The translations under genes were made by a program, and so were the position numbers. The notes beneath the pieces are model-generated. The model worked only from the letters and a program-made list of their open reading frames with translations, was not told the origin of the DNA and ran no database searches. A stretch of DNA of 64,000 nucleotides from Rhodobacteraceae bacterium (ex Bugula neritina AB1) (lineage in GTDB: Bacteria > Pseudomonadota > Alphaproteobacteria > Rhodobacterales > Rhodobacteraceae), in NCBI GenBank assembly GCA_001730095.1, contig MDLF01000048.1, positions 1 through 64,000 on the forward strand, in the 5' to 3' direction. Position 1 is the first letter of the stretch. Every line of letters begins with the position of its first letter. This document shows, piece after piece, positions 1 to 28,133 of the stretch.

Positions 1-1302
1 GCTGCCATACTCCGCCCCATGCGACTTAAGGGTCGTATAGAGAGGGCTGCGGCGAATATCCCGCGCAGATGACTTTTCATGTCCTGGCGGCTGTAGCGTA
101 TAATGTTCGCCATAGATCTCGATGGCCCGCGAGTACAAGTAATCTTCGGTTGTATGCACCGGCCCAAAGCGACGCGCGTCCAGGGACCACAGGTCCTTTT
201 GGGGCGATCCGTTCAGGATCCAGTCCGCCATGACCTCACCGATTCCACCGCCCGCGGCGATCCCAACAACACAGCCCGACGCAACAAAGCCGTTTTCAAG
301 ATCGGCAATCGGCCCGAGGACAAAATCTCCATCCGCAGAAAACGGAATGGGTCCGTTTACGACGTCGCGAATACCCAATGAACCCAGGATCGGTGTGCGG
401 GTGATCGCAGCATTGAGAAACGGCTCCAACCGATCCAGTTCAGGCGGCAAAAGCTCCTGCCCAAAGTTCTTGGGAATTTTGTCTTTGTCGAACGGAACCG
501 TATTCGGTTCCCAGGCCCCGACAATCAGGCCATTTGCCTCGGGTTTATAGTAGATGGACAAGTCTGGATCGCGCATCGACGGCATGTTGGCGTTCACGTC
601 ATCCAGATTGTCTGTAATCAGGTATTGGTGCTCAACCCCGCAACAGGCGAGGTTCACACCCATTCTCTTGCCCAGCTCACGCGCCCAGACGCCCCCGGCA
701 TTGACCACGGTATTACATTCAATGGTGCCCTTGGTCGTCTCCACCGCGGTGATGCGGCGTCCCGACTTTTTGAACCCCGTGACCGATATGCCCTGTTCTA
801 TTGTGGCGCCGTGGTTTCGCGCACCAATGGCAAAGGACTGGGTCAGACCGGTGGGGTCCGCGACACCGTCCCCTGGAACATACAGCGCGCCCAGCACGCC
901 ATTTGTGTCCATGATCGGGAACAGGTCGCGGGCCTCATTGGCCGTGAGGATTTCAGCTTCCAGGCCGAAACTGTCGGCCATCGTCTTTGAGCGGCGGATT
1001 TCCCGCAACCGCTCTTCATTTGAAGCCAGTCTCAGACTGCCCGTAGCGCGCCACCCGGTCGCTTGCCCTGTTTCAGCTTCCAGCCCGGCGTAGATTTCAG
1101 TGCTCCGCTTGAGCATTGATGACACGTTTTTCGAGGACCGCAGCTGACCGACCATACCGGCGGCATGCCAGGTGGACCCATGAGTCAAGGCGGCCTTTTC
1201 GAGCAAAACGACGTCTTCCGCTCCGGCCTTGGCGAGATGGTAGGCGATGGAGGTGCCCAAGATCCCCCCACCGACCACAACGATGTTCGCCTGAGATTTC
1301 AT
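1..1302 (-). CDS. Sarcosine/dimethylglycine dehydrogenase-like flavoprotein, N-terminal part (runs off left edge)
   Basis: The reverse strand is open from the ATG at 1302 to base 1 (434 codons) with no stop, so the gene is cut by the window edge. It opens with a dinucleotide-binding GGGILG motif near residues 11-16 and a GSTWHAAGM motif whose His (about residue 46) is the position that carries covalent FAD in dimethylglycine and sarcosine dehydrogenases. The visible part covers the DAO-type FAD domain and its linker; a GcvT-like half would lie to the left. The family oxidatively removes N-methyl groups and passes the one-carbon unit to tetrahydrofolate. It is a close paralogue of the next gene upstream and overlaps that gene's stop by 4 bases (ATGA), so it is the last visible member of the microcompartment operon. 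The substrate is inferred only as an N-methylated amine. Confidence 0.85.
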   Translation of the reverse strand, partial: MKSQANIVVVGGGILGTSIAYHLAKAGAEDVVLLEKAALTHGSTWHAAGMVGQLRSSKNVSSMLKRSTEIYAGLEAETGQATGWRATGSLRLASNEERLREIRRSKTMADSFGLEAEILTANEARDLFPIMDTNGVLGALYVPGDGVADPTGLTQSFAIGARNHGATIEQGISVTGFKKSGRRITAVETTKGTIECNTVVNAGGVWARELGKRMGVNLACCGVEHQYLITDNLDDVNANMPSMRDPDLSIYYKPEANGLIVGAWEPNTVPFDKDKIPKNFGQELLPPELDRLEPFLNAAITRTPILGSLGIRDVVNGPIPFSADGDFVLGPIADLENGFVASGCVVGIAAGGGIGEVMADWILNGSPQKDLWSLDARRFGPVHTTEDYLYSRAIEIYGEHYTLQPPGHEKSSARDIRRSPLYTTLKSHGAEYGS

Positions 1303-3740
1303 GCGCGCACTTTCTCGGAGGACGGATCATAGACGGGGTGGAAATGCACCTGCGCGGGCGTCAAAACTCCGGCCACTTCCAGTTCATATTCACCCTGTTC
1401 AATGAACGCCTTGTCGACACCGGCCTTGTTGCTGACATATCCGAGACCAACTGGCATCCCGACCGAGTGGCCAAACCCGCCAGACGTGAGATAGCCAACT
1501 TGCACGCCATTGCGGTAAATGGTTTCTCGTCCAAGCAGAACCACGTCCTTGTTTTCCACAGTGAACGACACCAGGCGGCGTCCCAGCGGGCGATTGCGCG
1601 CGTCTTCCAAGGCGGCCCGGCCGACAAAATCGACGTTCTTGTCGAAGTCCACCGCGAACCCGATGCCGGCTTCAAACGGGTTCTCGTCAGGCGTAACCTC
1701 AGCCCCCCAGACACACATCCGTTTTTCGATGCGCAAGCCATCGAGCGCTCGGTAACCGGCATCTTTCAGCCCGTAAGCTTCACCCGCCTGCTTGAGACGG
1801 TCGTAAACCGTTTGCATGTACTCTGACGGGATGTGCAGTTCCCAACCCAGCTCGCCGACGAATGACATACGCATTGCCCGGACCGGTGCCCCGGCAACCA
1901 TGATGTCCTTCACATGGCCAAAGGGAAAATCGGCACCATCCAGTGATGCTTCTGTAATCGACGCCAGCAATTCACGGGATTTCGGCCCCATCAGGCCAAG
2001 CACGCCATATTGCGAGGTGATGTTTATCAGGGAAACGGTTTCGTCCTGAATGCTCTTCTCGATGAAGTTGAAGTCACGCGTCGCCATAGCCGTGCCGGTA
2101 ACGACATAATACTTGTCTTCTGCGATCCGAGCGATTGTCAGGTCGGATTCAATCCCGCCCTTGGCGTTCAGAATTTGCGTGTATGTCAGTCGCCCGGGGG
2201 CTTTCGCCATATTGCCCGCACAAATGCGCTGCAGGAACTTTTCTGCATCGGGGCCAACAAGCATTGCCTTGGAGAAAGAGGACTGATCAAAGACTGCCAC
2301 ATCTTCGCGACAGGCACGGTGTTCCTCGGCGACATGTGGCATCCAATTGAAATTGCTCCACGCGTATTGATCCACAGGCTCCACGCCTTGTGGTGCGAAC
2401 CAGTTTGCGCGCTCCCAACCGGCCTTGGCTCCGAAGCTGGCCCCGTTTGCCTTCAGGCGATCGTAGATTGCGCTTTTGCGCAGCGGGCGACCTTTTTGGA
2501 ATTCATAATATGGCCAATGCAATGCAAAGTGGTGACCCTGCCCCTCAAGTGACCGTGTCCGAACGGCATTGTCAGACCAGTGAAACTGCGAGAAGCGGCG
2601 AATATCAACAGGCCAGAGATCAAATGGCGCCTCGCCTTCCAGCATCCAGGTCGCGATGGCCATGCCAGCCCCGCCACCTGCCGCGATACCCATGGCGTTG
2701 TACCCGGTAGAGACGAAGAAGTTTCTCACTTCCGGGGCTTCGCCCAGAATGAAATAAGTGTCTTCGGTGAAGCCTTCGAGACCGTTGAACCACTGTTTTA
2801 TGCCAGCATTGGCCAAGCCAGGGAACCGCTCCATCATCGACGGCATAAATTGCTCAAAATGATCGAATTCTTCCGGGAAGAGCTTAAACTCTTCATCATT
2901 CAAAGTTGGACGCGGCAAATGTGGGATGGGATTGAACTCGTAGCCGCCGCAGACCAATCCGCCCACTTCTTCCTTGTAATAGGTCAACTTGTCCGGATCG
3001 CGCAGCGACGGCATCGTCGGGCTGAGACCCTCGAGCTTTTCCGTAACCATGTACTGGTGGTGCGACGGTTGAACCGGGATATTGACACCGGCCATACGGC
3101 CAAGCTCGCGAGACCACGTCCCCGCCGCAACAAGAACCTTGTCACACTTGATGTCGCCACGGGTGGTTTTGACGCCTACCACCGAGCCATTCTCGATTTC
3201 AAAGCCGAGAACGCCCGTACCTTCAAAGATCTTTACCCCACGATTGCGCGCACCTTTGGCCAACGACATGGTGATGTCCGACGGATTGGCGACCCCGTCC
3301 GAGGCCGTGTACAATCCGCAATCCAGATCCGAGACATCCATTCCAGGGCACATCTCTGCAACCTCCTGTGGGGTAAGCAGTTCCGTCTCCAGGTCAAAGG
3401 AACGCGCCATTGTGAGCTGGCGCAGGTACTCGCGGCGGCGGTCTTTCGTGCAGGCCAACCGCAGCGATCCGTTCGCCTTCCAACCCGTCGCAAGCTCGGT
3501 TTCCGCCTCAAGACTCGCGTAAAGCTCGACCGAGTAGCGCAGAAGACGCGTCAGGTTTGCACTTGCCCTTTGCTGACCGACCATCCCGGCCGCGTGCCAA
3601 GTGGACCCGGAGGTCAGTTGGCCGCGTTCCAGGACAACAACATCTTTGCAGCCAAACTTGGCCAGGTGATAGGCCGCAGAACAGCCGGCAATGCCTCCAC
3701 CAACGATGACAATTTCACTTTGTGTTGGAAAATTCTTCAT
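1299..3740 (-). CDS. Dimethylglycine/sarcosine dehydrogenase-like FAD-GcvT protein
   Basis: This 813-residue protein has the full two-part build of the family: an FAD-binding DAO domain (GGGIAGCSAAYHLAKFG near residues 14-30, covalent-flavin type STWHAAG with His49), the FAO-type linker, then a folate-binding GcvT domain and its C-terminal barrel from about residue 420 on. The family demethylates compounds such as dimethylglycine or sarcosine and captures formaldehyde as methylene-tetrahydrofolate. I chose the ATG at 3740 because GAGG lies about 7 bases upstream; a longer reading frame to 3815 has no such site and adds non-family sequence. It follows a BMC-T gene after 134 bases and overlaps the next paralogue by 4 bases. 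Two such proteins in a BMC operon are unusual. The actual substrate cannot be read from the sequence. Confidence 0.9.
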   Translation of the reverse strand: MKNFPTQSEIVIVGGGIAGCSAAYHLAKFGCKDVVVLERGQLTSGSTWHAAGMVGQQRASANLTRLLRYSVELYASLEAETELATGWKANGSLRLACTKDRRREYLRQLTMARSFDLETELLTPQEVAEMCPGMDVSDLDCGLYTASDGVANPSDITMSLAKGARNRGVKIFEGTGVLGFEIENGSVVGVKTTRGDIKCDKVLVAAGTWSRELGRMAGVNIPVQPSHHQYMVTEKLEGLSPTMPSLRDPDKLTYYKEEVGGLVCGGYEFNPIPHLPRPTLNDEEFKLFPEEFDHFEQFMPSMMERFPGLANAGIKQWFNGLEGFTEDTYFILGEAPEVRNFFVSTGYNAMGIAAGGGAGMAIATWMLEGEAPFDLWPVDIRRFSQFHWSDNAVRTRSLEGQGHHFALHWPYYEFQKGRPLRKSAIYDRLKANGASFGAKAGWERANWFAPQGVEPVDQYAWSNFNWMPHVAEEHRACREDVAVFDQSSFSKAMLVGPDAEKFLQRICAGNMAKAPGRLTYTQILNAKGGIESDLTIARIAEDKYYVVTGTAMATRDFNFIEKSIQDETVSLINITSQYGVLGLMGPKSRELLASITEASLDGADFPFGHVKDIMVAGAPVRAMRMSFVGELGWELHIPSEYMQTVYDRLKQAGEAYGLKDAGYRALDGLRIEKRMCVWGAEVTPDENPFEAGIGFAVDFDKNVDFVGRAALEDARNRPLGRRLVSFTVENKDVVLLGRETIYRNGVQVGYLTSGGFGHSVGMPVGLGYVSNKAGVDKAFIEQGEYELEVAGVLTPAQVHFHPVYDPSSEKVRA

Positions 3741-3874
3741 TTCGCCCTCACCAACGATTCGCGCAGCATGACATTGGACACGGATGCCAGCCGCCCTCTT
3801 CTTGAAAACCCGCACAAAGCAATCTGCGCGCGCAGTTCACTGTTTGCCAACAAGGACAGATGCGACCCGGCATG

Positions 3875-4504
3875 TTACTTCGCACGCCCCTTGATGCTTC
3901 CCAGCACCTCGGTGATGCGGTCGCGCGCAATGGTCATGTCCTCCAGCGTGCCCGACATGAACACTCGCCCCGTGGCGCCCATCATCTGAACGTCGTTTAT
4001 GGTGACACCGGGCGCGGCCTTTTCTGCCTCATTGGCCGCAACGCAGGCAAACAGTGCAGGGGCCATTTCATAGATGAGCAACGCCACCCCCGGCACCAGT
4101 ATCGACCCATCCCGCGACCGGTTCAGAATGATCGCATGTTGATCCGACAAATCCTCGATGATGTCGTGATACAAAACCTTGGGTGCCAGTTGATCAGCCG
4201 CCTTGGCGCCAATCCCGTTGAGGATCGCCTGCCCGGCCGCCTCCAGTTCTTTCATCGAGTCAGCATGCAACTCCAAAAGTCCGAACTGTCGTTCGGTAAA
4301 CAGAATGCCCGGTTCCATGTCCGGTGCAACTTTCAGCGCGAGATCGGTGATCCGGTGAATACTCAAGGCCGGAGCGACCTCGATAATCAGCGAGTTTTGC
4401 CCTTTGAAAGGCGGATAGGCTCTGGCCCGCGTCGGCGACGACAAGTATGCCGCAAACTGCGGCTGCAGATCTTCGATGGGGAGATATACGCGAAGTTCTG
4501 TCAT
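3875..4504 (-). CDS. BMC-T tandem-domain microcompartment shell protein (copy 1)
   Basis: The 209-residue protein has two successive BMC-like folds, the layout of trimeric BMC-T shell proteins that form pseudohexagonal tiles in the facet of bacterial microcompartments. Visible family features are the ERQFGLLELHA stretch (about residues 71-81) and the ACVAANEAEKAAPGVTINDVQMMGATGRVFMSG region in the second half, with the typical helix then beta-hairpin around a pore loop. It is a diverged paralogue of the protein at 5490-6101, sharing ERQFG, DQHA, NEAEK and MxGAxGR blocks. It lies 25 bases downstream of the BMC-H gene on the same strand. Two different BMC-T proteins in one operon is common in BMC loci; one often has a gated pore, but that cannot be judged here. 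Confidence 0.9.
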   Translation of the reverse strand: MTELRVYLPIEDLQPQFAAYLSSPTRARAYPPFKGQNSLIIEVAPALSIHRITDLALKVAPDMEPGILFTERQFGLLELHADSMKELEAAGQAILNGIGAKAADQLAPKVLYHDIIEDLSDQHAIILNRSRDGSILVPGVALLIYEMAPALFACVAANEAEKAAPGVTINDVQMMGATGRVFMSGTLEDMTIARDRITEVLGSIKGRAK

Positions 4505-4529
4505 GTCCTATTCACCTTTCTTCGCTGAC

Positions 4530-4808
4530 TTACTTCGCAGCGGCAAAGTGTTTGCCAAGATCGGTATGCGGACGCGGAATCACGTGAACCGCAGTAAGAT
4601 CACCAACCTGGCTGGCTGCCTGGGCCCCTGCCTCTGTCGCGGCCTTCACGGCACCAACGTCCCCGCGGACGACAACAGAAACCAGCCCACCCCCCACTTC
4701 GTTGCGTGCGACGATTTCAACATTAGCCGCTTTGACCATTGCATCCGCAGCTGACAGGGCAGGCACGTAGCCTTTGGTTTCGATCATTCCGATTGCAAGA
4801 TTTGCCAT
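4530..4808 (-). CDS. BMC-H hexameric microcompartment shell protein
   Basis: This 92-residue protein is a canonical single-domain BMC protein of the PduA/EutM/CcmK type. It starts with [32 protein letters not shown] and contains [24 protein letters not shown] and [10 protein letters not shown], matching the family along its whole length. Hexamers of such proteins tile the facets of the shell and let small metabolites pass through the central pore. The gene lies between the BMC-P and BMC-T genes, 20 and 25 bases from each, in the same orientation. It is the only BMC-H in view, so it is probably the main facet protein. The identification is firm; pore selectivity is unknown. Confidence 0.96.
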
Positions 4809-4828
4809 GGGGTTATCCTCTCTTGAAT

Positions 4829-5074
4829 TTATTTTGATTTTTCGTCGATGGATCCGATGATGATCGCATCAACCGGAGCCGTTATTCCCTTGAAATAGGC
4901 GGCAGCGACCGACCCTTGCGTGATCAACACGGCTTCGTCGTCTGCACATCCCAGCGGATCAAAGGCGATCAAACGACCACCTCCGTCGGCCTCCACCTCC
5001 AACAGTGCCCCGGCGGGCAGCGTGTCGACATGTCTGGAAGACCAGATTTTTCCTTTCACGCGACCTTTGATCAT
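4829..5074 (-). CDS. BMC-P pentameric vertex protein (EutN/CcmL family)
   Basis: The 81-residue product begins [28 protein letters not shown] and continues with an OB-like fold ending in [12 protein letters not shown], the hallmark of EutN/CcmL proteins. Pentamers of this family cap the twelve vertices of microcompartment shells. Its start overlaps the stop of the 139-residue protein gene by 4 bases, so the two are probably translated together. With BMC-H and two BMC-T proteins nearby, the operon encodes every tile class needed for a closed shell. Length and motifs are normal for the family. Confidence 0.95.
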
Positions 5075-5490
5075 AGTTCAATCCTTTCGATCCGGATGCC
5101 TCGGCGCCGGGCTTCGTCCTGGGCCAGCGGAGTGATGCAACTGAGCCGGGCCACGCGCACATGGCGTCCGGAAATCGCGGCGATATCGCTTTCGGTGACC
5201 AGCTTCTTGTCCAGAACGTCTGGTGTCGGTCCTCGAGGGGTGGAAACAATGGGACGCGCAGGCATCGCGGCTGCGGGCAGTCCACCCAGCGAAAACTGTA
5301 TGGTCCCGGCGCGCACCCCGGAAGCATAGCTGGGATCCTGCAAGCGCTCCACAAGGTCCTGCGCGAACCGGTTCAGGTCGGCGCTCGAGGATATCTGCAC
5401 CCTCTCGGTCGATACTTGCCGTGTTTCCGAACGCAGCGCAGCCAATTCCTCGCGCAGAATCGAGCGTATTTCGTCCCGTATTGACGACAT
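5071..5490 (-). CDS. BMC-associated small protein with N-terminal encapsulation-peptide-like helix
   Basis: This 139-residue protein has no enzyme domain I recognise. Residues 1-20 (SSIRDEIRSILREELAALR) form an amphipathic helix that strongly resembles the extreme C-terminus of the aldehyde dehydrogenase in the same operon. Residues about 28-65 look like a second helical segment (FAQDLVERLQDP). A Pro-rich linker leads to a C-terminal block, about 97-139, with LVTESDIAAI and CITPLAQDEARRRGI. Similar TPLARD-type tails occur on several BMC-associated proteins, by memory only. The gene overlaps its neighbours by 1 base (TAATG) and 4 bases. I infer a core-assembly or cargo-linking role, since short amphipathic helices target cargo to shells; a regulatory role is also possible. 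Confidence 0.7.
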   Translation of the reverse strand: MSSIRDEIRSILREELAALRSETRQVSTERVQISSSADLNRFAQDLVERLQDPSYASGVRAGTIQFSLGGLPAAAMPARPIVSTPRGPTPDVLDKKLVTESDIAAISGRHVRVARLSCITPLAQDEARRRGIRIERIEL

Positions 5491-6101
5491 TATTCAGCTC
5501 CGGCATCGCGCAATGCCTGTTCTGCTGCGTTTCTCGCGTTGCGTACGTCGGCTTCGGTTCCGGCCAGATACAACCGGCCATTCGCACCCACCATGCGCAT
5601 ATCGATCAACTTGATATCTGCTTCCTTCTCGGCTTCGTTGCAGGCAAGGATCGCGTAAGCCGCCGACTGGCACTCCAGCAGGTAGATGCTGTCACCACCA
5701 ATCACCATCGATCCCAGTTTGTTGCGGTTCATGAGAAACGCATGCTGGTCATCAACATTTGTCACCAGTTTGGACGCCGAAATCCTGGGCGGCGCCACGT
5801 CATTCATGGTCTGTCCCAGCTCTTCGAGGATTGCCGCAGCGCCCGAGTGCACTTCGGCAGTCGAGTGAGAATGGAATTGCAACGTCCCGAACTGGCGCTC
5901 CACGACAAGAAGCCCCGCCCGCACATCAGAGCTCTTGAGCACCACGTCAGTCAGCGCCTCGATGTCCAGACCGGGTGCGATCTCGACGATCTGGGCCGCC
6001 ATACGCAATCGCGGCAGAGTTCCACGCATCCACGTAGAGATATAGGCAAGGGTTTGCGGCTGAAGCTGGTCAATGAAAATGGAAGCACGGAGATTTGGCA
6101 T
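5490..6101 (-). CDS. BMC-T tandem-domain microcompartment shell protein (copy 2)
   Basis: This 203-residue protein is the second tandem BMC-domain shell protein of the operon. It carries VVERQFGTLQFHSHS (about residues 66-80), DDQHAFLMNRN, ACNEAEKEADIKLIDMRMVGANGRLYLAGT and a C-terminal helix, matching the 3875-4504 protein block by block though overall identity is modest. It starts directly after the aldehyde dehydrogenase stop (TAGATG) and its own stop overlaps the next start (TAATG), so translation of cargo enzyme, shell and scaffold-like protein is linked. The two copies probably form distinct trimers. Which one carries a gated pore is not visible. Confidence 0.9.
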   Translation of the reverse strand: MPNLRASIFIDQLQPQTLAYISTWMRGTLPRLRMAAQIVEIAPGLDIEALTDVVLKSSDVRAGLLVVERQFGTLQFHSHSTAEVHSGAAAILEELGQTMNDVAPPRISASKLVTNVDDQHAFLMNRNKLGSMVIGGDSIYLLECQSAAYAILACNEAEKEADIKLIDMRMVGANGRLYLAGTEADVRNARNAAEQALRDAGAE

Positions 6102-7616
6102 CTATAGGCTCCCTTTGAGGCTTCGAAGTTCTTCCAAAATCAATTGTCGAATCTCGTTTCTGTCGGTCTGTGGGGATGGATCAGGTACCGTGGCCATTGG
6201 CGAAGCCGTCGGAGCAGGCGTTTGCGTGGTCTGGGAAAGATCAACAACCTCCAGGTTGGCGGGCACATCGCTCCCGAACGCGATCTTGGTCCAGTGCACC
6301 AGATGCTGCGGGCCGACGTTTTCGCCAATCGACGAACGCCCGGAGTATCCTGTCCCGATCATGAACGACGGTGGAAGATATGTCGCAAAACCGGCAGCAC
6401 CCTGGCTGCAAGGTGCGTTTACCACCACCCGGTAAACCGGCATCGCTTGGGAAAAGGCAACCAGATGGGTCTGGTCATTACCGTGGAACGCCGCCGAATG
6501 CCCGGCACCGCGTTTCGCCGCGTGCTTGGCAAAGGTCACCGCTTGCTGGAAATCCACGGCTGCCGTCAGCGTCAGCACGGGGCACAGTTTTTCCTTGAAC
6601 AACAGATCATCCTGTCCGGGCTTTGGCACCACTGGCACCAGGACCTTGGCCGTCGGGCTGACCCTGATGCCTGCCCTCTCCGCGATCCACGTCGCGGATT
6701 TGCCAATGGCTTCAAGGTTAAAACCCTTGTCGCCCCAAAGGTAACTGCGCAACCGATCCGTATCTTCTTCGTTGCAGACATGCGCGCCCGCAGTACGTAG
6801 CGCCCGCTTTACGTTGTCAAAATTCTCTTCCAGCGTCAGGCAAATGCTTTCGTTGGTACACAGGATCGAATTGTCGAAACTCTTGCTGTCGACGAGGCAT
6901 TTCGCAGCCGCATCAACCTGGGCTGATGGATCGACAAAGGCCACCGCATTGCCGGGCCCGACGCCAAGCGCCGGATTGCCCGAAGAATAGGCCGCACGCA
7001 CCATCATGTTGCCACCTGTGGCCATGATGACGTTGATCTTGTCAGATGCCATAATCTCTTCCACCAAGGGCACCGACGGTTCTTCAACACATTGAATGAG
7101 ACCTGACGGCGCGCCTGCCGCTTCGGCAGCTTCGGCAACGGCGCGCGCGGCGGCAACAGAGCTCTGCTTGGCCATCGGGTGCGGGCTCAGCACGATCGCA
7201 TTGCGGCTGAGAATGGCCAGTATTGATTTGTAATAGACTGTGGCCACCGGGTTGGTGACCGGAGCCAGCGCAAAGATGACACCGGCGGGCTTGGGCAACT
7301 CGATGATCTTGCGATCCTCATCAACACGAGGCGTCACCAGATCCATATCGCGGTAATGATCCAGCAGATCATGGGTGCACAGCCGGTTCTTGATGGTCTT
7401 GTGTTCCACAACACCATAACCGGTTTCCTCAACCGCGAGCTCCGCGAACTCGGCGGCCCTGTCAAAGGCCGCCTTTGCAACCGCCTCAGCGATGCGCAAG
7501 ACGGCTTCGCGATCAAAGGTCTGGTAGTATTTCGCGGCCCAGGCCGCACGTCCCACTTTCATATGGGCCGATGACAGGTCCCGATCCGGGACGTTCAGGC
7601 GCGCGCCACCGTCCAT
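6102..7616 (-). CDS. CoA-acylating aldehyde dehydrogenase with C-terminal encapsulation-like tail
   Basis: This 504-residue enzyme belongs to the EutE/PduP-type acylating aldehyde dehydrogenases, which turn an aldehyde, NAD and CoA into acyl-CoA and NADH. Visible are the PAGVIFALAPVTNPVAT segment (about 110-126), GVGPGNAVAFVD (218-229) and the catalytic-cysteine region SFDNSILCTNES with Cys253. After the enzyme core a Pro/Thr-rich linker (about 461-484) leads to a terminal amphipathic helix (NEIRQLILEELRSL, ending at 504). That tail resembles residues 5-19 of the 139-residue protein encoded two genes downstream, and is probably the signal that places the enzyme inside the shell. The start overlaps the upstream aminotransferase stop (TAATG). 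The aldehyde it handles is unknown; relatives include enzymes for acetaldehyde, propionaldehyde and sulfoacetaldehyde. Confidence 0.88.
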   Translation of the reverse strand: MDGGARLNVPDRDLSSAHMKVGRAAWAAKYYQTFDREAVLRIAEAVAKAAFDRAAEFAELAVEETGYGVVEHKTIKNRLCTHDLLDHYRDMDLVTPRVDEDRKIIELPKPAGVIFALAPVTNPVATVYYKSILAILSRNAIVLSPHPMAKQSSVAAARAVAEAAEAAGAPSGLIQCVEEPSVPLVEEIMASDKINVIMATGGNMMVRAAYSSGNPALGVGPGNAVAFVDPSAQVDAAAKCLVDSKSFDNSILCTNESICLTLEENFDNVKRALRTAGAHVCNEEDTDRLRSYLWGDKGFNLEAIGKSATWIAERAGIRVSPTAKVLVPVVPKPGQDDLLFKEKLCPVLTLTAAVDFQQAVTFAKHAAKRGAGHSAAFHGNDQTHLVAFSQAMPVYRVVVNAPCSQGAAGFATYLPPSFMIGTGYSGRSSIGENVGPQHLVHWTKIAFGSDVPANLEVVDLSQTTQTPAPTASPMATVPDPSPQTDRNEIRQLILEELRSLKGSL

Positions 7617-8896
7617 TATGCAACCCTCCGCATCGATCTGAGAAGCTGACGCGCGCGCGGCATCGCCGCATCAAAACGATCCATGATTTCCTGGCAGAGC
7701 TCCACGTCCTTCACGACGCCCGGCTTGAATTGCAGAACCCGCTTGTCCAACGAAGAAAAGATGGCCCACACCCCGTTTTCATAAAGCGCCCTTGAGACCG
7801 CAATGGCCCCTTCCGGGTGATCGAACTCCAACCCAAGCACCAGGCCGCGCTGCCGGACTCCGACAAACAGGTCACTGTGTCTGGCCATCATCTCGGCCAT
7901 CGATCTGGCAAAGAAGTTGGCGACAAAATCAATGTTCGAAATGATCTCCGGCCGTTGCAGCATTTCCAGCACGTGATGCCCAACCAGACAGCCCAGCTCT
8001 GACCCCCCCGCCGTCGAAATATGCGCCGCGCCGTCTTCGACCTGCCACTGGCCGCATTCTTCTGTGACCATGCAGGCGCTGACAGGATAGATGCCGCCGC
8101 CCAGTCCCTTACCACAGACAAAGATGTCCGGCTTCAGGCCATATCCTTGCCAACCCCACATCACGCCGGTGCGCATCAGACCGGTCTGCACTTCGTCCGA
8201 AATGAACTTGGCGCCGTATTTATGGCACAGGTCCTGACACGCCTTGAGATACCCGTCTTCCGGCATTGGAAAGCCATAGGTCGCCGGAATGGTCTCGATG
8301 ATAAAGGCCGCAACGTCGCCTTTTTTCAACTCCTGCTCCAGCGCATCCGGGTCATTGAACGGAACCTGAAAGAACTCCTCGGGGCGATCCGCAAGAAAGA
8401 TCTTGCTGAAACGCTCGTCGCCGGTGGCCACGGAAAGCCCGGAATGGCCGTGATATCCCTTGATGATCGAGACGATCTTCTTACGTTTGGTCGCATAGCG
8501 CGCGGTCTTGATGGCAAGTTCCACCGCCTCTGCGCCGCCCGCGCCAAAAATTGCGTATTTCATGTGGGGCGTTGTCGCCACGAGTTTTTCCGCAAAGGCC
8601 GCTCGCGCGACAGACGGGAACCAGTGGTTGCCTATGTCAAAATAGTCGAGACCGGATTTCAACACCTCGACCAGCTCCGGGTGCCGGTGGCCGAAATTGT
8701 AGGTGCCGCCGTTCAGGTGCAGATCAATCAGCCGCTTCCCGGTCATGTCGTGCAAAAAGTAACCTTCGCGGCGGTCGATCACCATCGGAGTGCCGGCATC
8801 TTGCCAGAACTTGACCTTGCCCGGATTCCAGTACTCTGCCGCTTTCGTCAGCAATTCTTCTTTGGAGGCGAACGAAAAGTAACCGTAGTTAAACAC
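7616..8896 (-). CDS. Class III aminotransferase-fold PLP enzyme of the BMC operon
   Basis: This 426-residue protein shows the class III PLP-dependent fold: DLHLNGGTYNFGHRHP near the N-terminus, GAGGAEAVELAIKTAR (about 117-132), ISDEVQTGLMRTG with the PLP-ring Asp, and FVCGKGLGGGIYPVSA with the Schiff-base Lys (about residue 265). The family transfers an amino group from an amine to a keto acid and yields an aldehyde or ketone. Members of the same fold act as phospho-lyases on amino-alcohol phosphates, and such a role has been reported for the Mycobacterium aminopropanol microcompartment. Either reaction would supply an aldehyde to the acylating dehydrogenase encoded directly downstream. It is the first gene of the BMC operon and faces the DeoR-type regulator. 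No amino-alcohol kinase is seen, so aminotransferase is my first choice. Confidence 0.85.
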   Translation of the reverse strand: MFNYGYFSFASKEELLTKAAEYWNPGKVKFWQDAGTPMVIDRREGYFLHDMTGKRLIDLHLNGGTYNFGHRHPELVEVLKSGLDYFDIGNHWFPSVARAAFAEKLVATTPHMKYAIFGAGGAEAVELAIKTARYATKRKKIVSIIKGYHGHSGLSVATGDERFSKIFLADRPEEFFQVPFNDPDALEQELKKGDVAAFIIETIPATYGFPMPEDGYLKACQDLCHKYGAKFISDEVQTGLMRTGVMWGWQGYGLKPDIFVCGKGLGGGIYPVSACMVTEECGQWQVEDGAAHISTAGGSELGCLVGHHVLEMLQRPEIISNIDFVANFFARSMAEMMARHSDLFVGVRQRGLVLGLEFDHPEGAIAVSRALYENGVWAIFSSLDKRVLQFKPGVVKDVELCQEIMDRFDAAMPRARQLLRSMRRVA

Positions 8897-8912
8897 GTGA
8901 TTCCCCTGTGTG

Positions 8913-8932
8913 GATGGTCATAAAGTACCATC
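8913..8932. promoter_or_regulatory. Inverted repeat between BMC operon and deoR-type gene, candidate operator
   Basis: The 133-bp divergent spacer between the aminotransferase start (8896) and the regulator start (9030) contains GATGGT-N8-ACCATC, a perfect 6-bp inverted repeat with 8 bases between arms. It lies 17 bases upstream of the aminotransferase start codon, a good place for a repressor to block the BMC operon. Assignment to the adjacent DeoR-type protein is inference from position only; family operators are short and variable. Confidence 0.35.
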
Positions 8933-9029
8933 ATTTGCCCGTTTAGCAACTTTTTATGCTGGATGTCGGTCATTTTACTTGCTGGAAATCCCCGAGATTC
9001 CCCGTAGTCTGGATCAACGGAGGCATAAA

Positions 9030-9803
9030 TTGACCCAGAAATTATCAAAAAAGGCAAAACGACAGGAACACATCCTGAAAGCGCTTGAATTAGACCCGGC
9101 CATGCGGGTCAATGACCTGGCAAGACGTCTGGATGTGTCACAAGAGACCGTCAGACGCGACCTCAGCGAACTCGACGACAGCGGCAGGATCAAACGAACT
9201 TATGGAGGAGCCGTTCGCGCGACTCGCTTCGAACCGCATCTGGCAGAACGTCTGCAACTGCACATAAAAGAGCGCGAAAGAATCGCACAGAAGGCGGTGG
9301 AACTTCTCGGAGATCACGAAAGCCTGTTTGTCGGCGGCGGCTCGACAACCTTTCACTTTGCCCGTGCGCTAAAGTCGGCAGACAGAAGATTGACGGTGCT
9401 CACGCCTTCCTTTGGCATTGCCACCGAGCTGGCAAGCAACGCCAAGATCGAAGTGCTTTTCCTGCCCGGTCAGGTCGAACCACGCGAAGGGTTGGTGCAT
9501 GGCCCGGAGACCCTCGAATACATTGGCCGCTACCGGACGCCCCTTGCCGTGGTCGGGGCCACCGCCGTTGACGAAGAAGGCGTGAGCGAGGCCCTTCTCA
9601 GCTCAGCACGTGTTTATCAGGCGATGATTCAAAGTGCAGATCGCACTTTGGTACTGGCGGATTCCTCCAAAATGGGCGGGCGTTCCCTTCGGGTTGTTCT
9701 CAAGTGGAATCCAAACGTGGATCTGCTCACCGACAGCCAACCCAGCGACAGCATCCGCCAGGCAGCCGAGGACGCGGGAACCCAAATTCTTGTCGCCCCT
9801 TGA
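9030..9803 (+). CDS. DeoR-family transcriptional regulator
   Basis: Residues of this 257-residue protein show the N-terminal DeoR helix-turn-helix (ALELDPAMRVNDLARRLDVSQETVRRDLSELDDSGRIKRTYGGAV) followed by the sugar-isomerase-like sensor domain (LFVGGGSTTFHFARAL, then GATAVDEEGVSEALLSSARV and ADSSKMGG near the end). I place the start at the TTG at 9030 because GGAGG lies 6 bases upstream and the family N-terminus begins there; the longer frame from 8910 would read through the promoter. It is divergent from the BMC operon and is its likely regulator, usually a repressor relieved by a phosphorylated metabolite. The inducer is unknown. Confidence 0.88.
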   Translation: MTQKLSKKAKRQEHILKALELDPAMRVNDLARRLDVSQETVRRDLSELDDSGRIKRTYGGAVRATRFEPHLAERLQLHIKERERIAQKAVELLGDHESLFVGGGSTTFHFARALKSADRRLTVLTPSFGIATELASNAKIEVLFLPGQVEPREGLVHGPETLEYIGRYRTPLAVVGATAVDEEGVSEALLSSARVYQAMIQSADRTLVLADSSKMGGRSLRVVLKWNPNVDLLTDSQPSDSIRQAAEDAGTQILVAP

Positions 9804-10240: not shown

Positions 10241-11308
10241 TCAGATGGCGCCCAAAGCCTCGTCTCTCTGGACCGCATACTTCGACCCGTGGCGCAGAAC
10301 GCTCCCTGCGGTGCGGGCCAGCTTGTTGGCCAATGCAACTGCGGCCTTGTTGTGGGGCATGCGTGCCGTGACGCCCCTCAGCCAATCCCCCAAGCCCACG
10401 GCATCCCAGCGGTGTGGACGCATCAAGATGACATTGGCAGCCTGCACTAACAACATGCGTAAATACCCATTGCCGCGCTTGCTGATCCGACCAAGGATGG
10501 TCCGCCCACCTGTGCTGAACTGGCGCGGCACCAGACCTACCCACGCTGCAAAGTCCCGCCCTCTGTCAAATACCTCGCCCTTGCCAATGGCGGCAACGAT
10601 CGCCGTCGATATCAGTGGACCGATCCCTGGAATGGTCATGATGTTGGCGCTGTATTCTTCTGACTTGCTGATCTCTTCAATCTCTGAGGAGATTGCATTG
10701 ATCCGTTCATCAACCCAGAGCCAATCGCCATAAAGCCCCATCAGGATGGAGCGCATACGGGGTGAGATTTCATCACGCCGGTTTTCCAGGATCGCCTCAA
10801 ACGAGCTCTGCAACCTATGCCGTCCCGCCCGCACGGTGATGCCTTGCGCAATCAGGAACGCCCGGATTTGATTGATCGTGGCGGTGCGGCGTGCCACCAG
10901 TCTTGACCGCACTCGGTGCATTGCCTGCAGGTCCAATTGATCCTGACTTTTCTCGGTAACGGTCCGCAGGTTTGGTCTCATTGCTGCTTCTGCGATTGCC
11001 GCGGCATCATTGTAGTCGTTCTTTTGCCCTTTATTGAATGGCTTCACATAGATCGCTGGAATGATCCGGGGTTCGAAGCCAAGCTCTCGCAGCATGCGGC
11101 CAACAAAATGCGCGCTCATGCAGGCTTCCATACCAACGATGCAGTGAGGAAGTTGCTCAAACGTCGACTTCAACGCCAACCGCCTAATTTTTTGGCGCAA
11201 AACGCGCTGACCTGCGTGGTCAAAGCCGACCAGATGGAACGTGTCTTTTCCGATGTCGACGCCAATGACTGCAACCTCGTCGATATCTTCAGGGTTCTTC
11301 GATTTCAT
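10241..11308 (-). CDS. IS110-family transposase
   Basis: This 355-residue protein has the IS110 layout: an N-terminal RuvC-like DEDD domain (VIGVDIGKDTFH, then CIVGMEACMSAHF, then NDYNDAAAIAEA carrying the last Asp pair) and the C-terminal Transposase_20 domain (MTIPGIGPLISTAIVAAIG and RDFAAWVGLVPRQFSTGG...GNGYLRMLLVQAA) with the serine-containing region. These enzymes recombine DNA guided by a bridge RNA made from the element's own non-coding end. I chose the ATG at 11308 because GGAG lies 8 bases upstream; the open frame to 11461 adds non-family sequence. The element sits between the BMC/DeoR block and the betaine transporter operon and appears intact. Element ends and target core were not resolved. 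Confidence 0.92.
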   Translation of the reverse strand: MKSKNPEDIDEVAVIGVDIGKDTFHLVGFDHAGQRVLRQKIRRLALKSTFEQLPHCIVGMEACMSAHFVGRMLRELGFEPRIIPAIYVKPFNKGQKNDYNDAAAIAEAAMRPNLRTVTEKSQDQLDLQAMHRVRSRLVARRTATINQIRAFLIAQGITVRAGRHRLQSSFEAILENRRDEISPRMRSILMGLYGDWLWVDERINAISSEIEEISKSEEYSANIMTIPGIGPLISTAIVAAIGKGEVFDRGRDFAAWVGLVPRQFSTGGRTILGRISKRGNGYLRMLLVQAANVILMRPHRWDAVGLGDWLRGVTARMPHNKAAVALANKLARTAGSVLRHGSKYAVQRDEALGAI

Positions 11309-11485
11309 AGCCACTTCTCCTGTTTGCAGAAATAGGCAAAGCCTAAACTGATGGGTGAAGCAGCCGGTACATCCCATTAGTTCCGAATGCTGCGTTGTGG
11401 CTGAACGGAAGCAAAGAACCGGAAACCGCCGATGGAAGTTTAGGATAGCAATAACTGCCAAGCACCCATAGGCGTCTGGCAGTTA
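11309..11485 (-). other. Non-coding leader of the IS110 transposase, possible bridge-RNA region
   Basis: About 177 bases separate the transposase start from a strong inverted repeat near the ABC operon's end. In IS110-group elements the left-end non-coding stretch upstream of the transposase encodes the bispecific bridge RNA, of similar length. I cannot verify guide loops without the flanking and donor sequences, so this is assignment by position. The right limit is uncertain because the hairpin at 11452-11485 may belong to the neighbouring operon instead. Confidence 0.3.
11452..11485 (-). terminator. Strong hairpin after the glycine betaine binding-protein gene
   Basis: TAACTGCCA and TGGCAGTTA form a perfect 9-bp stem with 16 bases between; the inner part can pair further (CGCC with GGTG). 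It begins 21 bases beyond the stop of the binding-protein gene on its strand, where a terminator is expected, but no T-run follows. It could instead be a structured end of the IS110 element. Confidence 0.4.
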
Positions 11486-11506: not shown

Positions 11507-12460
11507 CTATTCGATCCAACCGTTGACAACATCTGCGTTATTGGCGACCCATTCTTCGGCCACATCGCGGGGGTCCATTTTATCCCGGCCGATCTTCAGG
11601 ATCCAATCGTTGATCGTGTCGGGTTCCATAGCCAGCTGGCTAAGAAATTTGGCAACCGGCGGATTCCGTTGCTCAAGCGATTTGGAATAGGCGACATAGA
11701 TACTGGCATCCTGACTGGCGCAGGCGAATGTGGAAACTTCCAACCAGTCTTCGGCATCCAGGTTCACATCCTCGCAGCCCTCGGTGCGGGCCGGTTCCTC
11801 GATCGGTGTGATGTCATAGGCGGCGTGGATCCATTCCGGCGTCCAGTAGTAAAACAGGATCGGCTGCTCGCGGGTCACGGCAGTTTTCAGCTGTGCCTTG
11901 AACGTGTCCTGAGGCAGCACTTCGGCTTCCCATAATTCTTCCAGACCGTATGATTTGAACTTGACCTGCCACATGCGGGTGGATTTCCAACCGGCATCGC
12001 CCGCCCAATATTCACCCTTGCCGTTGCCGTCTTTATCGAACATTGCGGCAATCTCGGGGTCTTTAAGGTCTTCGATCGAGGTGATACGGTCGGCCATGTG
12101 GCTGGGCACATAGATGCGCTGCGTGCCTTTGTATGGGATGTTGTGGGCGACTGTGCCTGCTTCGTCGATATACTTGTCCCAGATGGCTTGCCGGTTCGGC
12201 ATCCACAGATCGGAGTAAACATCGACCGAGCCGTCCCCCTTGTCCATGCCCGTTGCAATGACCGAGCCGTCTGACATGCCGTCGACAATTTCCGCCTCGG
12301 AATCGAGCGGCCCTTCGATGACCGCCTGAATGACATGGCCGATGGCCTTGGCTCCGGTCCAGCTAAGGTCACCGATCTTGACGGTGGCGTCCTGAGCCAT
12401 AACTCCGGTTGCCAAGGCCGACAAGGTGACGGCTCCAATTGTTGTTTTGAGGTTTTTCAT
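11507..12460 (-). CDS. Glycine betaine/choline-type ABC transporter substrate-binding protein
   Basis: This 317-residue secreted protein starts with a signal peptide (KNLKTTIGAVTLSALATGVMAQD, cleavage after AMA/Q-like site about residue 22) and continues with the OpuAC/ProX fold (VKIGDLSWTGAKAIGHVIQAVIEG, DVYSDLWMPNR, GKGEYWAGDAGWKSTR, FYYWTPEWIHAAYDI). Family members bind quaternary amines with a cage of aromatic residues; several Trp residues sit in the expected motifs. It is the last gene of the operon and lies 51 bases below the permease gene. Substrate could be glycine betaine, choline or a related methylated amine; the nearby GcvT-type enzymes favour a compound that is degraded rather than one used only for osmoprotection. 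Confidence 0.9.
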   Translation of the reverse strand: MKNLKTTIGAVTLSALATGVMAQDATVKIGDLSWTGAKAIGHVIQAVIEGPLDSEAEIVDGMSDGSVIATGMDKGDGSVDVYSDLWMPNRQAIWDKYIDEAGTVAHNIPYKGTQRIYVPSHMADRITSIEDLKDPEIAAMFDKDGNGKGEYWAGDAGWKSTRMWQVKFKSYGLEELWEAEVLPQDTFKAQLKTAVTREQPILFYYWTPEWIHAAYDITPIEEPARTEGCEDVNLDAEDWLEVSTFACASQDASIYVAYSKSLEQRNPPVAKFLSQLAMEPDTINDWILKIGRDKMDPRDVAEEWVANNADVVNGWIE

Positions 12461-12511
12461 AACTTTCCCTTTCCTGTTGTGACGGGGCCGGGTGACCCCT
12501 TTATTGGATTT

Positions 12512-14056
12512 TTATTGGCGCGTGACTTTCGCCTTCTGGACCACCCTGTCGATCATCATCGCCAACAGAGCAATTCCGATACCGGCCAGGACGCCGCGCC
12601 CTGTCTCGGTATTCTCAAGGGCCTCGGTCACCACGTACCCCATGCCCCCCGCGCCGATCAGCGCGGCAATGACCACCATGGAGAGGCTCATCATCACGAC
12701 CTGGTTGATCCCGGCCATGATCGACGGCAGCGCCAGAGGCAGTTCGACCTTGGTCAGCAACTGACGGGGGTTCGCCCCAAAGGCGAGCGCGGCTTCCTTG
12801 GTGTTGTCGGGTACGTGCCGGATGCCCAATGCGGTCAAGCGCACCATCGGTGGCATCGCAAAGATCACCGTCGCCAGAATGCCCGGAGGCTTGCCAATTG
12901 AGAAAAACGCGATGGCGGGCAGCAGATAGACAAAGGACGGGATGGTCTGCATCACATCAAGGATCGGCGTGACAACAGCCTGACCGCGCCGCGACTTACC
13001 AACCCAAACCCCAAGGGGCAGCCCTGCAACCACACAGATCAGCGATGAAGCCACCACCAGAGACATCGTATCCATCGCCGTCTGCCAAAACCCGAAGACA
13101 GCGAGATAGATCAGCGAGGCGCCCACAAAGATCGCTGTACGGCTGCCCGCGACCTGATAGGCGATGAACAGCAGAACGCTCATCGTGATCGGCCAGGGCG
13201 TGCCCACAAACACCGAGGTGATCGCGCTGAGCATACCGCGCAGAACATGGGTGATACCGTCGAACAGGAACCCATAGAACACAGTCAGATAGCTGATCCC
13301 ATCATCAATCGCTTGCGACGTATAGGTGTTCAGGTTGACCGGCGGCGCCCCTTCGCTTGGAGGGGTCCGCTTGATGGTGCGATTGCCGTCGTCATCCCGC
13401 GGGAAAGAAATCTGATCGGGTCGGTCGATCCAGATGAAAGTGGGGAATTCCCCGATGATGAAACAATCGAAGCGCTTTTTGAACTCGACATGCTCACCCT
13501 TGGCAATTGCCCGGTCTTGGCGGATACAGCTGCGTTCTTCGGGCGCAAATTGGGTCGTGCGGTACAGCAGCAATGGCAAGATCAGCAGTGAGATCAGCAA
13601 AGCGATGAGCAAACGTGAGGCAACAAGCCCGGAATTGACCCTCCGGTCGATGCGCCATTTTTCGTATTGGGCTGAATAGAACCGGTCCGCTAGCCAGGCA
13701 AACAATAAACGCCCGATCACGAATACAACAATCGCGCTGACCAGATGGGTTTGCGTCCAGCCCTCGTAGCGTTCGACCAGATAGGCCTTGCCGGCGTTTT
13801 CGATGGCGGCGTTGGAATATTTGTGGACCAGCGCGCAATTCACCAGCGTGATCAGGTCCACAACAAAACCGATGATGAACAGCTTCCAGTTCCCGCGCAG
13901 GGCGGCCCAGACAAAACCACCCAGAAGAGCCGCTTTGTTCAGGTGAAAGCGGCCCAGCGTCGCCTTCTGGATTTGCAGGAATACGTCCGCATAGTAAGCG
14001 CCGTTTGCCCCGGCGAAATCGATGAAGGGTTTGCGGATATCAGGTGTATCGTTCAT
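12512..14056 (-). CDS. ABC permease of proline/glycine betaine type with long N-terminal extension
   Basis: The C-terminal part (about residues 285-510) is a BPD_transp_1 permease of the ProW/OpuAB type with the EAA loop (KEAALAFGANPRQLLTKVELPLALPSIMAGI). The first 250 or so residues are extra: several hydrophobic segments (around 44-73, 107-125 and 148-163) and a soluble stretch before the permease core. At 514 residues it is much longer than a 280-350-residue ProW protein. Extended permeases of this type occur in Rhodobacteraceae, but the role of the extension is not known to me. It starts 3 bases after the ATPase stop, so the two are co-translated. Confidence 0.88.
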   Translation of the reverse strand: MNDTPDIRKPFIDFAGANGAYYADVFLQIQKATLGRFHLNKAALLGGFVWAALRGNWKLFIIGFVVDLITLVNCALVHKYSNAAIENAGKAYLVERYEGWTQTHLVSAIVVFVIGRLLFAWLADRFYSAQYEKWRIDRRVNSGLVASRLLIALLISLLILPLLLYRTTQFAPEERSCIRQDRAIAKGEHVEFKKRFDCFIIGEFPTFIWIDRPDQISFPRDDDGNRTIKRTPPSEGAPPVNLNTYTSQAIDDGISYLTVFYGFLFDGITHVLRGMLSAITSVFVGTPWPITMSVLLFIAYQVAGSRTAIFVGASLIYLAVFGFWQTAMDTMSLVVASSLICVVAGLPLGVWVGKSRRGQAVVTPILDVMQTIPSFVYLLPAIAFFSIGKPPGILATVIFAMPPMVRLTALGIRHVPDNTKEAALAFGANPRQLLTKVELPLALPSIMAGINQVVMMSLSMVVIAALIGAGGMGYVVTEALENTETGRGVLAGIGIALLAMMIDRVVQKAKVTRQ

Positions 14057-14059
14057 GGT

Positions 14060-15121
14060 TCAGGTTTCCCCTTGAATGCCGCGCAGCAGGGCGTCTTTGG
14101 TCACGACCCCGACGGGTTTGTTGTCGCTCATGATCACCACGGGATTGTCCTGATTGACCGCTAGACCAACCAACGTATCGAGATCGTCTTCTGGATCCGC
14201 CTGAGGGCAGTCCTGAAGACTTGGCAGCATGACGCCGCCGGATTCATATTTTTCAACCGGTTGCATAACCGTATGCGCGAAGATGAGTTTCAGCTTGGAG
14301 ATGCCCGCCACGAAATCCGCCACATAGTCATCGGCTGGTTTGGTGACGATCTCTTCCGGTGTGCCGGTTTGAACGATCTCGCCATCCTTCATGATGGCGA
14401 TGCGGCTGCCCATGCGGATGGCCTCATCCAGATCATGCGTGATGAAAAGTGTTGTCTTTTTCATCGACTTCGAAAGTTCGAGAAATTCGTCCTGCAACCC
14501 GCGTCGAATGAGCGGGTCTAGCGCGGAGAACGGCTCGTCCATCAGCAGGATATCGGGGTCCGCCGCCATGGCACGCGCCAGCCCGACCCGCTGCTGCATA
14601 CCGCCCGATAGCTCGGACGGGTAGCGGTCGCCATAGCCTTGCAGATCTACCAGCTCGATGGTGCGGTCGGCGACCTGTGCACGGGTAAAGGCGTCAACGT
14701 TGCGCAGCTCCAACGCAAAGGCGATGTTGTCGCGTACTGTCCGGTGCGGCAGCAAGGCCATGTTCTGGAAAACCATGCCGATCTTGTCCGCGCGCATTAC
14801 CCGCAGTTCTTCGGCATCCAGGTCCCCGACATTCACTCCATTGATAAGAATCTCACCGCCTGTAGGCTCGATCAGACGGTTGATGTGACGCACCAGGGTG
14901 GATTTGCCAGAGCCCGAAAGCCCCATGATGCAGAAGATTTCGCTTTCGCCAACGCTGATCGAGACGTCCCGCACGCCGACAACCGCCTGATACTGTTCCA
15001 GCACCTCTGCCTTGGTCAGGTTATCCCTGCGGACGGCTTCCATTGCTTCGTCAGCGCGAGCGCCAAATATCTTCCAGACATTGCGCGTCTCAACGACGTT
15101 TTTTCTTGTTGCGTCACTCAC
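14060..15121 (-). CDS. ABC transporter ATPase of ProV/OpuAA type
   Basis: The 353-residue protein has Walker A GLSGSGKST (67-75), the signature LSGGMQQRVGLARA (171-184), Walker B ILLMDEP (191-197) and the H-loop FITHDLDEA. The opening helix region (KIFGARADEAMEAVRRDNLTKAEVLEQYQAVVGVRDVS) is the N-terminal extension typical of glycine betaine importer ATPases. A C-terminal stretch with GLAVNQDNPVVIMSDNKPVGVVTKDALL resembles a CBS-like segment that senses ionic strength in OpuA. Its start overlaps the stop of the GcvT-DUF1989 gene by 4 bases. It energises uptake through the permease and binding protein encoded downstream. Confidence 0.92.
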   Translation of the reverse strand: MSDATRKNVVETRNVWKIFGARADEAMEAVRRDNLTKAEVLEQYQAVVGVRDVSISVGESEIFCIMGLSGSGKSTLVRHINRLIEPTGGEILINGVNVGDLDAEELRVMRADKIGMVFQNMALLPHRTVRDNIAFALELRNVDAFTRAQVADRTIELVDLQGYGDRYPSELSGGMQQRVGLARAMAADPDILLMDEPFSALDPLIRRGLQDEFLELSKSMKKTTLFITHDLDEAIRMGSRIAIMKDGEIVQTGTPEEIVTKPADDYVADFVAGISKLKLIFAHTVMQPVEKYESGGVMLPSLQDCPQADPEDDLDTLVGLAVNQDNPVVIMSDNKPVGVVTKDALLRGIQGET

Positions 15122-27656: not shown

Positions 27657-28133
27657 ATGACCACACACTCTGCGGCCTGCACGCTGAATTCGCCTGAAGA
27701 AACGGCCAAGCTGGCCGCCCGTATCGCCGGAGCTCTGCGCCCCGGCGATTGCCTGTTGCTGGATGGCGTCATCGGGGCCGGCAAGACCCATTTCGCGCGC
27801 CATCTCATCCAGTCTTTGATGGAAGTCCCGGAAGACGTGCCATCGCCAACCTTTACGCTGGTGCAAACATACGATGTGCCTGCCGGCGAGCTGTGGCACA
27901 CTGATTTATACCGGCTGTCTTCTCTGGATGAGCTGGAAGAGCTGGGTCTGACCGACGCATTTGACACCGCAATCTGCCTGGTGGAATGGCCCGGCAAGCT
28001 GCAGGAGCTGACGCCGCCGCACGCCCTGCGTCTGCAGTTGGCGCTTGACCCGAAAATCGAAGACCGCCGCCAGCTGACATTCAGCTGGAGCGACGCAAAA
28101 TGGCAGCCTCTCATGGAGCGCATCTTCGCATGA
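27657..28133 (+). CDS. tsaE: tRNA threonylcarbamoyladenosine biosynthesis ATPase TsaE
   Basis: The 158-residue protein has the TsaE P-loop GVIGAGKTHFARHL (about 38-51), the SPTFTLVQTYD block (63-73), HTDLYRLSSLDELEELGL and the VEWPGKL motif. TsaE works with TsaB and TsaD to attach threonylcarbamoyl to A37 of ANN-decoding tRNAs. Its stop overlaps the amgK start by 4 bases. The gene begins 48 bases after the PAS-protein gene and probably starts the tsaE-amgK-murU-addBA operon. Confidence 0.96.
   Translation: MTTHSAACTLNSPEETAKLAARIAGALRPGDCLLLDGVIGAGKTHFARHLIQSLMEVPEDVPSPTFTLVQTYDVPAGELWHTDLYRLSSLDELEELGLTDAFDTAICLVEWPGKLQELTPPHALRLQLALDPKIEDRRQLTFSWSDAKWQPLMERIFA

Follow-up and report, generated by a model that had tools for sequence, protein, structure and literature searches.

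Operon layout at the contig end

At the left end of contig MDLF01000048.1 (C48) of Rhodobacteraceae bacterium (ex Bugula neritina AB1), the first 64,000 nucleotides of which are called the window here, lies a bacterial microcompartment (BMC) operon of nine genes, which run leftward from 8896 to 1 on the minus strand. All nine frames are open, without stops, and tightly packed, and the gene content given in a preliminary description of this DNA (four shell proteins, an acylating aldehyde dehydrogenase, a class III pyridoxal 5'-phosphate (PLP) enzyme, a 139-residue protein and two flavoproteins) was confirmed at the level of families by Pfam and NCBIfam. The features are as follows, with the evidence in brackets.

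7616-8896, minus strand: class III PLP enzyme (AMT3), the signature enzyme, a proposed amino-alcohol-phosphate lyase (PF00202, 233.7 bits)
6102-7616, minus strand: aldehyde dehydrogenase that acylates coenzyme A (CoA) (PF00171)
6105-6164, minus strand: encapsulation-peptide-like helix at the C-terminus of the dehydrogenase (similar C-terminus in 29 of the 29 rows listed, Rhodococcus jostii included)
5490-6101, minus strand: shell protein BMC-T1, MSM0275-type (PDB entry 5l39, 248 bits; tree)
5071-5490, minus strand: 139-residue accessory protein, presumed to be a cargo or assembly protein (homologues in related loci)
5437-5487, minus strand: encapsulation-peptide-like helix at the N-terminus of the 139-residue protein (conserved residues in seven aligned sequences)
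4829-5074, minus strand: BMC-P vertex protein, MSM0273-type (PF03319; PDB entry 5l37, 83.8 bits)
4530-4808, minus strand: BMC-H shell protein (PF00936; 71% identity to the BMC-H of the R. jostii RMM compartment)
3875-4504, minus strand: shell protein BMC-T2, MSM0271-type (PDB entry 5suh, 285.7 bits; tree)
1299-3740, minus strand: DAO1, a flavoprotein resembling dimethylglycine/sarcosine dehydrogenase, with a tetrahydrofolate-type domain (DAO-FAO_M-GCV_T-GCV_T_C)
1-1302, minus strand: DAO2, a second flavoprotein resembling dimethylglycine dehydrogenase (DMGDH), which runs off base 1, the contig end (DAO-FAO_M)
8910-9803, plus strand: DeoR-family regulator, divergent from the operon and just beyond it (PF08220/PF00455)

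At five of the eight operon junctions, neighbouring genes overlap or adjoin directly (0-4 bp); at two others they stand 20 and 25 bp apart, and the only longer gap (134 bp) precedes DAO1, counted from the ATG at 3740; it shrinks to 59 bp if an upstream GTG at 3815 is used. The predicted RNA fold of this gap is ordinary (z 0.64), and a promoter and terminator scan gave site counts that did not exceed those of shuffled sequences. Substitution rates were compared with five relatives for the seven operon genes other than DAO1 and DAO2. Six genes had dN values of 0.03-0.22 and the 139-residue protein had values of 0.38-0.66, while dS was at least 1.1 or saturated in all 35 pairs; purifying selection is thus clear on the six genes and looser on the 139-residue protein. 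Base 1 of the window is the first base of the contig in a draft assembly of 106 contigs. A search of this genome with DAO1 and its domains gave 30 matches, and the missing half of DAO2 was not among them; this assembly therefore offers no leftward extension of the locus.

An RMM-type core and its relatives

The genera in which RMM compartments were described are Rhodococcus and Mycobacterium; whether the chemistry of these compartments depends on an aminotransferase or a phospho-lyase is disputed. The preliminary description held that the compartment type could not be named with certainty; however, a name can be given from PDB matches, a tree and the gene order of R. jostii. Searches of the PDB, which covered BMC-T1, BMC-T2 and BMC-P, returned as best matches the RMM proteins of Mycobacterium smegmatis entered in the list above (MSM0275, MSM0271 and MSM0273, respectively), and the next matches reached 151, 142 and 27.6 bits. 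BMC-T2 has no Pfam match, and its score against the NCBIfam CcmP model (173.8 bits) lies under the cut-off of that model. In a BMC-T tree of 48 rows, which included 16 chosen loci, two R. jostii proteins, one from Methylibium and 11 of another type, BMC-T1 grouped with the 275-like protein of R. jostii (18-row clade, support 99/93) and BMC-T2 with the 271-like protein (18-row clade, support 100/98), and these RMM-type proteins were separated from the other BMC-T type of the family with support of 100/100. Furthermore, the order on the R. jostii plasmid pRHL2, dehydrogenase, BMC-T, hypothetical protein, BMC-P, BMC-H and BMC-T, is that of the window. Taken together, the shell matches, tree, dehydrogenase and gene order assign the shell set, the acylating dehydrogenase, the accessory protein and their arrangement to the RMM type (AAUM or Aut; for the naming, see passages of PMC8007038). 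As claimed earlier, there is no B12 dehydratase, glycyl radical enzyme, phosphotransacylase or alcohol dehydrogenase beside the operon; in the relevant portions of Axen et al. (2014), R. jostii is among the RMM carriers and RMM is given as lacking an alcohol dehydrogenase and a phosphotransacylase.

Relatives of BMC-T1 occur in 20 of 394 genomes of the family, 11 of them (this genome included) with a window-like form at 54% identity or more and nine only with a form at 38-41%; BMC-T2 relatives occur in 11 of 385 genomes of a class-wide sample, again including this one. The second BMC-T type (L023-L032, L034), 38-41% identical to BMC-T1, was observed in a further nine genomes of the family, and in two genomes (G014, G227) it stands beside the window-like type.

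The dehydrogenase was best matched by the R. jostii RMM enzyme among 113 plasmid records (42.2% identity; 348 bits vs about 253 for the next kinds), and its NCBIfam scores (AdhE 410 bits, EutE-like TIGR02518 373, SauS 272) were all under cut-off. Its C-terminal motif, short and amphipathic-looking, has a near twin at the N-terminus of the 139-residue protein in all seven aligned sequences, where R5, I8, R9, L12, E14, E15 and L16 are invariant. In a 15-residue hydrophobic-moment scan the helix was not the top stretch of the dehydrogenase, and that of the 139-residue protein ranked third and fourth; it is therefore conservation and position that speak for encapsulation peptides. A peptide at the C-terminus agrees with the 'type I' dehydrogenases of a BMC catalogue (PMC8217296). 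The 139-residue protein itself has no Pfam family, its weak C-terminal matches to PduM/TIGR02536 are far under cut-off, its AlphaFold2 model is modest (mean pLDDT 76.4, pTM 0.33), and a Foldseek search of that model against the PDB gave no match at E 0.001 or better.

The window was then set against 22 other loci that carry a class III gene of the same clade, with neighbour families named on the L004 set. These 22 leave aside two fragments with no usable class III gene (L007, L010), a locus on the same contig as L048 (L009), the other half of a split locus in the L113 genome (L112), and loci with no class III gene of the clade (L051, L074, L115-L117). A homologue of an amino-alcohol kinase of the APH family is found alongside in 20 of the 22; in the genome of one exception (L044) the kinase stands at the start of another contig, and in the other (L110) the contig ends. 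The L004 kinase matches PDB entry 6ef6, the M. smegmatis aminopropanol kinase, with 273 bits, and is 36% identical to the phosphotransferase of the R. jostii RMM. A short-chain dehydrogenase/reductase (SDR) and a Pot-type ABC ATPase are each present in 20/22, a substrate-binding protein in 18/22 at the threshold used (two of the misses are at the margin of the sequence retrieved), an isochorismatase-type hydrolase in 13/22, and a DeoR homologue reaching 90 bits in 10/22. The 139-residue protein has a homologue in all 22, as well as in R. jostii. Genes resembling DMGDH occur in none.

The amino-alcohol kinase, the SDR and the Pot-type transporter are absent from the window locus, which ends with its contig at base 1. 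The earlier statement that no amino-alcohol kinase is visible thus holds for the window and fails for its relatives. With the same core and a different periphery, the window is the odd one among these loci, the core being kept and the periphery replaced. Compared with the RMM1/AAUM/Aut compartments of M. smegmatis and R. jostii, it has the same BMC-H, BMC-P and pair of BMC-T proteins (of the 275 and 271 kinds), a dehydrogenase with a C-terminal helix, a small accessory protein and the same gene order, and its relatives also share the APH-family kinase and the SDR. It differs in its class III enzyme, which comes from another clade, in a DeoR regulator where RMM1 has GntR, and in two DMGDH-like genes with no kinase, SDR or transporter found; its relatives have a Pot-type ABC transporter, whereas RMM1 has a permease.

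Four loci (L051, L115, L116 and L117) have an RMM-like shell and none of the class III gene, kinase, SDR and 139-residue protein. They keep an acylating dehydrogenase and are possibly another BMC type with an RMM shell; L051 lies near thiolase and AMP-binding genes, and L051 and L116 near TRAP transporter genes. A further RMM-like locus (L046, 8364-16797) has the kinase, lacks the usual SDR and ABC transporter, and adjoins a gene resembling the N,N-dimethylformamidase beta subunit (PF20254).

Proposed pathway and the demethylase pair

The preliminary description took the PLP enzyme as the source of the aldehyde used by the acylating dehydrogenase, and this reading is retained. It is probable, on balance, that the operon encodes an RMM-type metabolosome in which the class III enzyme, as a putative ammonia and phosphate lyase, would turn an amino-alcohol phosphate into an aldehyde, which the dehydrogenase would convert to acyl-CoA inside or at the shell while the shell confines the aldehyde. 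The leading guesses for the substrate are 1-amino-2-propanol phosphate, which would give propionaldehyde, and ethanolamine phosphate, which would give acetaldehyde. In the related loci, the Pot-type ABC transporter would import the substrate, the SDR would interconvert amino ketone and amino alcohol, and the APH-family kinase would make the phosphate. In the window, DAO1 and DAO2 stand in place of these three, and the phosphate would have to be supplied by a kinase that is encoded in the unassembled gap or at another site.

By their domains, DAO1 (DAO, FAO_M, GCV_T and GCV_T_C) and DAO2 (DAO and FAO_M, as far as the contig runs) belong to the dimethylglycine/sarcosine dehydrogenase family; neither reaches the cut-off of an NCBIfam equivalog among the matches listed. 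The closest relatives of DAO1 in the family sample are 51-55% identical. DAO2 is sister, with support of 100/99, to the DAO2 genes of six choline-kinase clusters in other genomes, and DAO1 falls in a nine-row set (97/92) with the DAO1 genes of these clusters and two paralogues from its own genome, the inner order of which is unsettled. Of the 394 family genomes, 18 others contain a relative of DAO2 with at least 50% identity, and 15 of these also have a DAO1-type gene on that contig at a distance of 5.0-8.8 kb.

The six clusters, each taken as a 20 kb stretch (L144-L149), carry DeoR and an OpuAC/ProW-type transporter (permease in 6/6, ATPase in 5/6). All six have a choline-kinase-like gene 4-27 bp beyond DAO2, five have a second one ahead of DAO1, and four have a gene of the inositol-monophosphatase family. 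These clusters, which come from the same bacterial family, share relatives of both flavoproteins with the window; on comparison with the BMC proteins of the window, no BMC genes were found in these stretches. If this cluster order is kept in the window, the sequence immediately beyond the contig end would hold a kinase gene.

These findings make a demethylation link to the BMC plausible. The proposed pathway may accordingly be extended: DAO1 and DAO2 would remove methyl groups from an N-methylated amino alcohol or from the phosphate of one, and the kinase would lie just left of base 1. This extension is put forward tentatively, as the less probable course. It would accommodate the kinship of DAO2 with clusters that hold DeoR, a betaine-type ABC transporter and two choline-kinase-like genes, the pairing of both flavoprotein types in 15 of 18 genomes, and the choline-kinase-like gene after DAO2 in six of six clusters, at the very place lost here at the contig end. 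The stretch from BMC-T2 to DAO1 also has no terminator-like site on the minus strand, a weak point given that scan counts did not exceed those of shuffles. However, none of the 22 relatives has such genes in its locus, no encapsulation-type end was seen on DAO1, and the tree leaves DAO1 between the cluster genes and the two paralogues. Moreover, DMGDH-like enzymes are common in this genome, as the 30 matches indicate, and known substrates of such enzymes carry a carboxylate. In genome G255, a BMC and a DAO cluster are both present on contig C1 but far apart, which indicates that the link is not general. That the operon is a BMC system with its own N-demethylation front end, made up of DAO1 and DAO2, a choline-kinase-like enzyme past the contig end, a new class III lyase clade and an RMM-type shell, is correspondingly doubtful as a whole.

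Lyase or aminotransferase

The preliminary description was right to place the PLP enzyme in class III; the aminotransferase role that it attached to the fold did not fare as well. At the position of the transaminase arginine, whose role is known from work on ornithine aminotransferase, Gln is found in all 24 rows of the clade (23 loci), in a motif VLQ(F/W)KPG whose Lys lies two residues further along. The position of this Gln is taken by Arg in putrescine aminotransferase and dialkylglycine decarboxylase, whereas the phospholyases 5g4i and 6tor have Lys there and Arg or Lys two residues on; R. jostii also has Lys. Furthermore, the kinase adjoins the class III gene in 20 of the 22 relatives, and both are absent from the four loci L051 and L115-L117. 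The replacement of Arg by Gln and the kinase association favour a lyase that acts on an amino-alcohol phosphate through another branch of the fold, and the enzyme is more likely such a lyase than an aminotransferase, as far as residues and neighbours can tell. It shares with the ethanolamine-phosphate and 5-phosphohydroxylysine phospho-lyases the class III fold, the absence of the transaminase Arg, a basic residue at the second position after it and, in the loci related to the window, a kinase partner; it differs in clade, and its lyase activity is a prediction.

The opposing explanation makes the class III enzyme a genuine aminotransferase that would form the aldehyde from a free amine or amino alcohol, with no phosphorylated intermediate. 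Several observations speak for it and count against the proposed pathway. Acetylornithine (the best PDB match, 165.6 bits), ornithine and putrescine aminotransferases all outscore ethanolamine-phosphate phospho-lyase (6tor, 115.8 bits), so that the nearest solved relatives are aminotransferases, and 5g4i is absent among the matches listed (60 of 119). The RMM enzyme of R. jostii, in contrast, is clearly related to phospholyases (5g4i 320 bits, 6tor 298, next kind 168), and the window enzyme is only 24% identical to it; on this comparison the latter appears not to be orthologous to the RMM phospholyase and to belong to another class III clade. In addition, neither the amino-alcohol kinase nor the choline-kinase-like gene was found in this assembly by searches that recovered them in 9/10 and 9/9 other genomes used as positive controls, and the best SDR of the genome is only 38% identical. 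An aminotransferase route was also published for RMM by Axen et al. (2014) and, for the same BMC type, by Ravcheev et al. (2019; PMC6620236), judging from the relevant parts of both papers. Set against the invariant Gln and the kinase association, this explanation is considered unlikely.

Two candidates for the missing kinase were rejected. A phosphotransferase fragment at the start of contig C70 has neighbours that, by eye, resemble an ABC exporter and a glycosyltransferase, and it has no 20-base overlap with the window. A kinase at 28100-29128 of the window is followed by a nucleoside triphosphate transferase and a PD-(D/E)XK nuclease-domain protein; it presumably acts in cell-wall recycling and is not part of the system. 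On the same contig, a 1002-residue PRK06148 protein (C48:86985-89993; L140 2986-5994; 1533 bits vs a cut-off of 1128) joins a kinase domain to a class III domain of the kind of the R. jostii RMM lyase and might act in trans.

Least likely of all, and very improbable, is an orphan locus, that is, a transferred or reduced RMM core whose pathway no longer works after loss of the transporter, SDR and kinase: those three genes are missing, an IS110-type transposase gene lies at 10241-11461 and a genome of the same genus (G238) lacks such a BMC-T, but six genes are under strong purifying selection in the comparison with five relatives, the frames have no stops, and the assembly gap beside the operon may hide genes.

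The transposase gene (minus strand, IS110 family) separates the DeoR gene from an operon resembling one for trimethylamine N-oxide (TMAO) demethylation (11507-17439, minus strand), which encodes a betaine-family ABC transporter and a DUF1989-GCV_T protein that scores 1055 bits against the TMAO demethylase model, just below its cut-off of 1100. The PDB matches of the binding protein at 1e-5 are only glycine-betaine binders (best 41 bits), so a TMAO specificity of the transporter is not established.

Significance of the exchanged signature enzyme

Paracoccus is an alphaproteobacterial genus. An RMM2 compartment with a diol dehydratase was reported in Paracoccus yeei TT13, in a text (PMC8156839) that, in the part relevant here, also cites a proposal that RMM turns aminoacetone into propionyl-CoA; the RMM shell class is common to both, and the operon proteins of the window show no diol dehydratase family. 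Ravcheev et al. (2019; PMC6620236) report the cluster from Actinobacteria, Firmicutes and Proteobacteria, in 11 genomes altogether. RMM outside actinobacteria is therefore not new. Neither the exchange of the class III enzyme nor the demethylase link was found described in a literature search that covered papers without their supplements, where the type descriptions of the BMC catalogue stand; an earlier description is thus possible.

These loci keep the shell, the dehydrogenase and the kinase of RMM but use a class III enzyme of an unrelated clade, which amounts to a natural swap of the signature enzyme and makes the question of RMM chemistry testable by a single enzyme assay. The co-occurrence of the kinase, the class III enzyme and the 139-residue protein marks a working unit. 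If the demethylases do belong to the system, BMC catabolism would reach N-methylated amino alcohols, a class of substrates new to BMCs, and the DAO/choline-kinase pathway of the family would be joined to a BMC.

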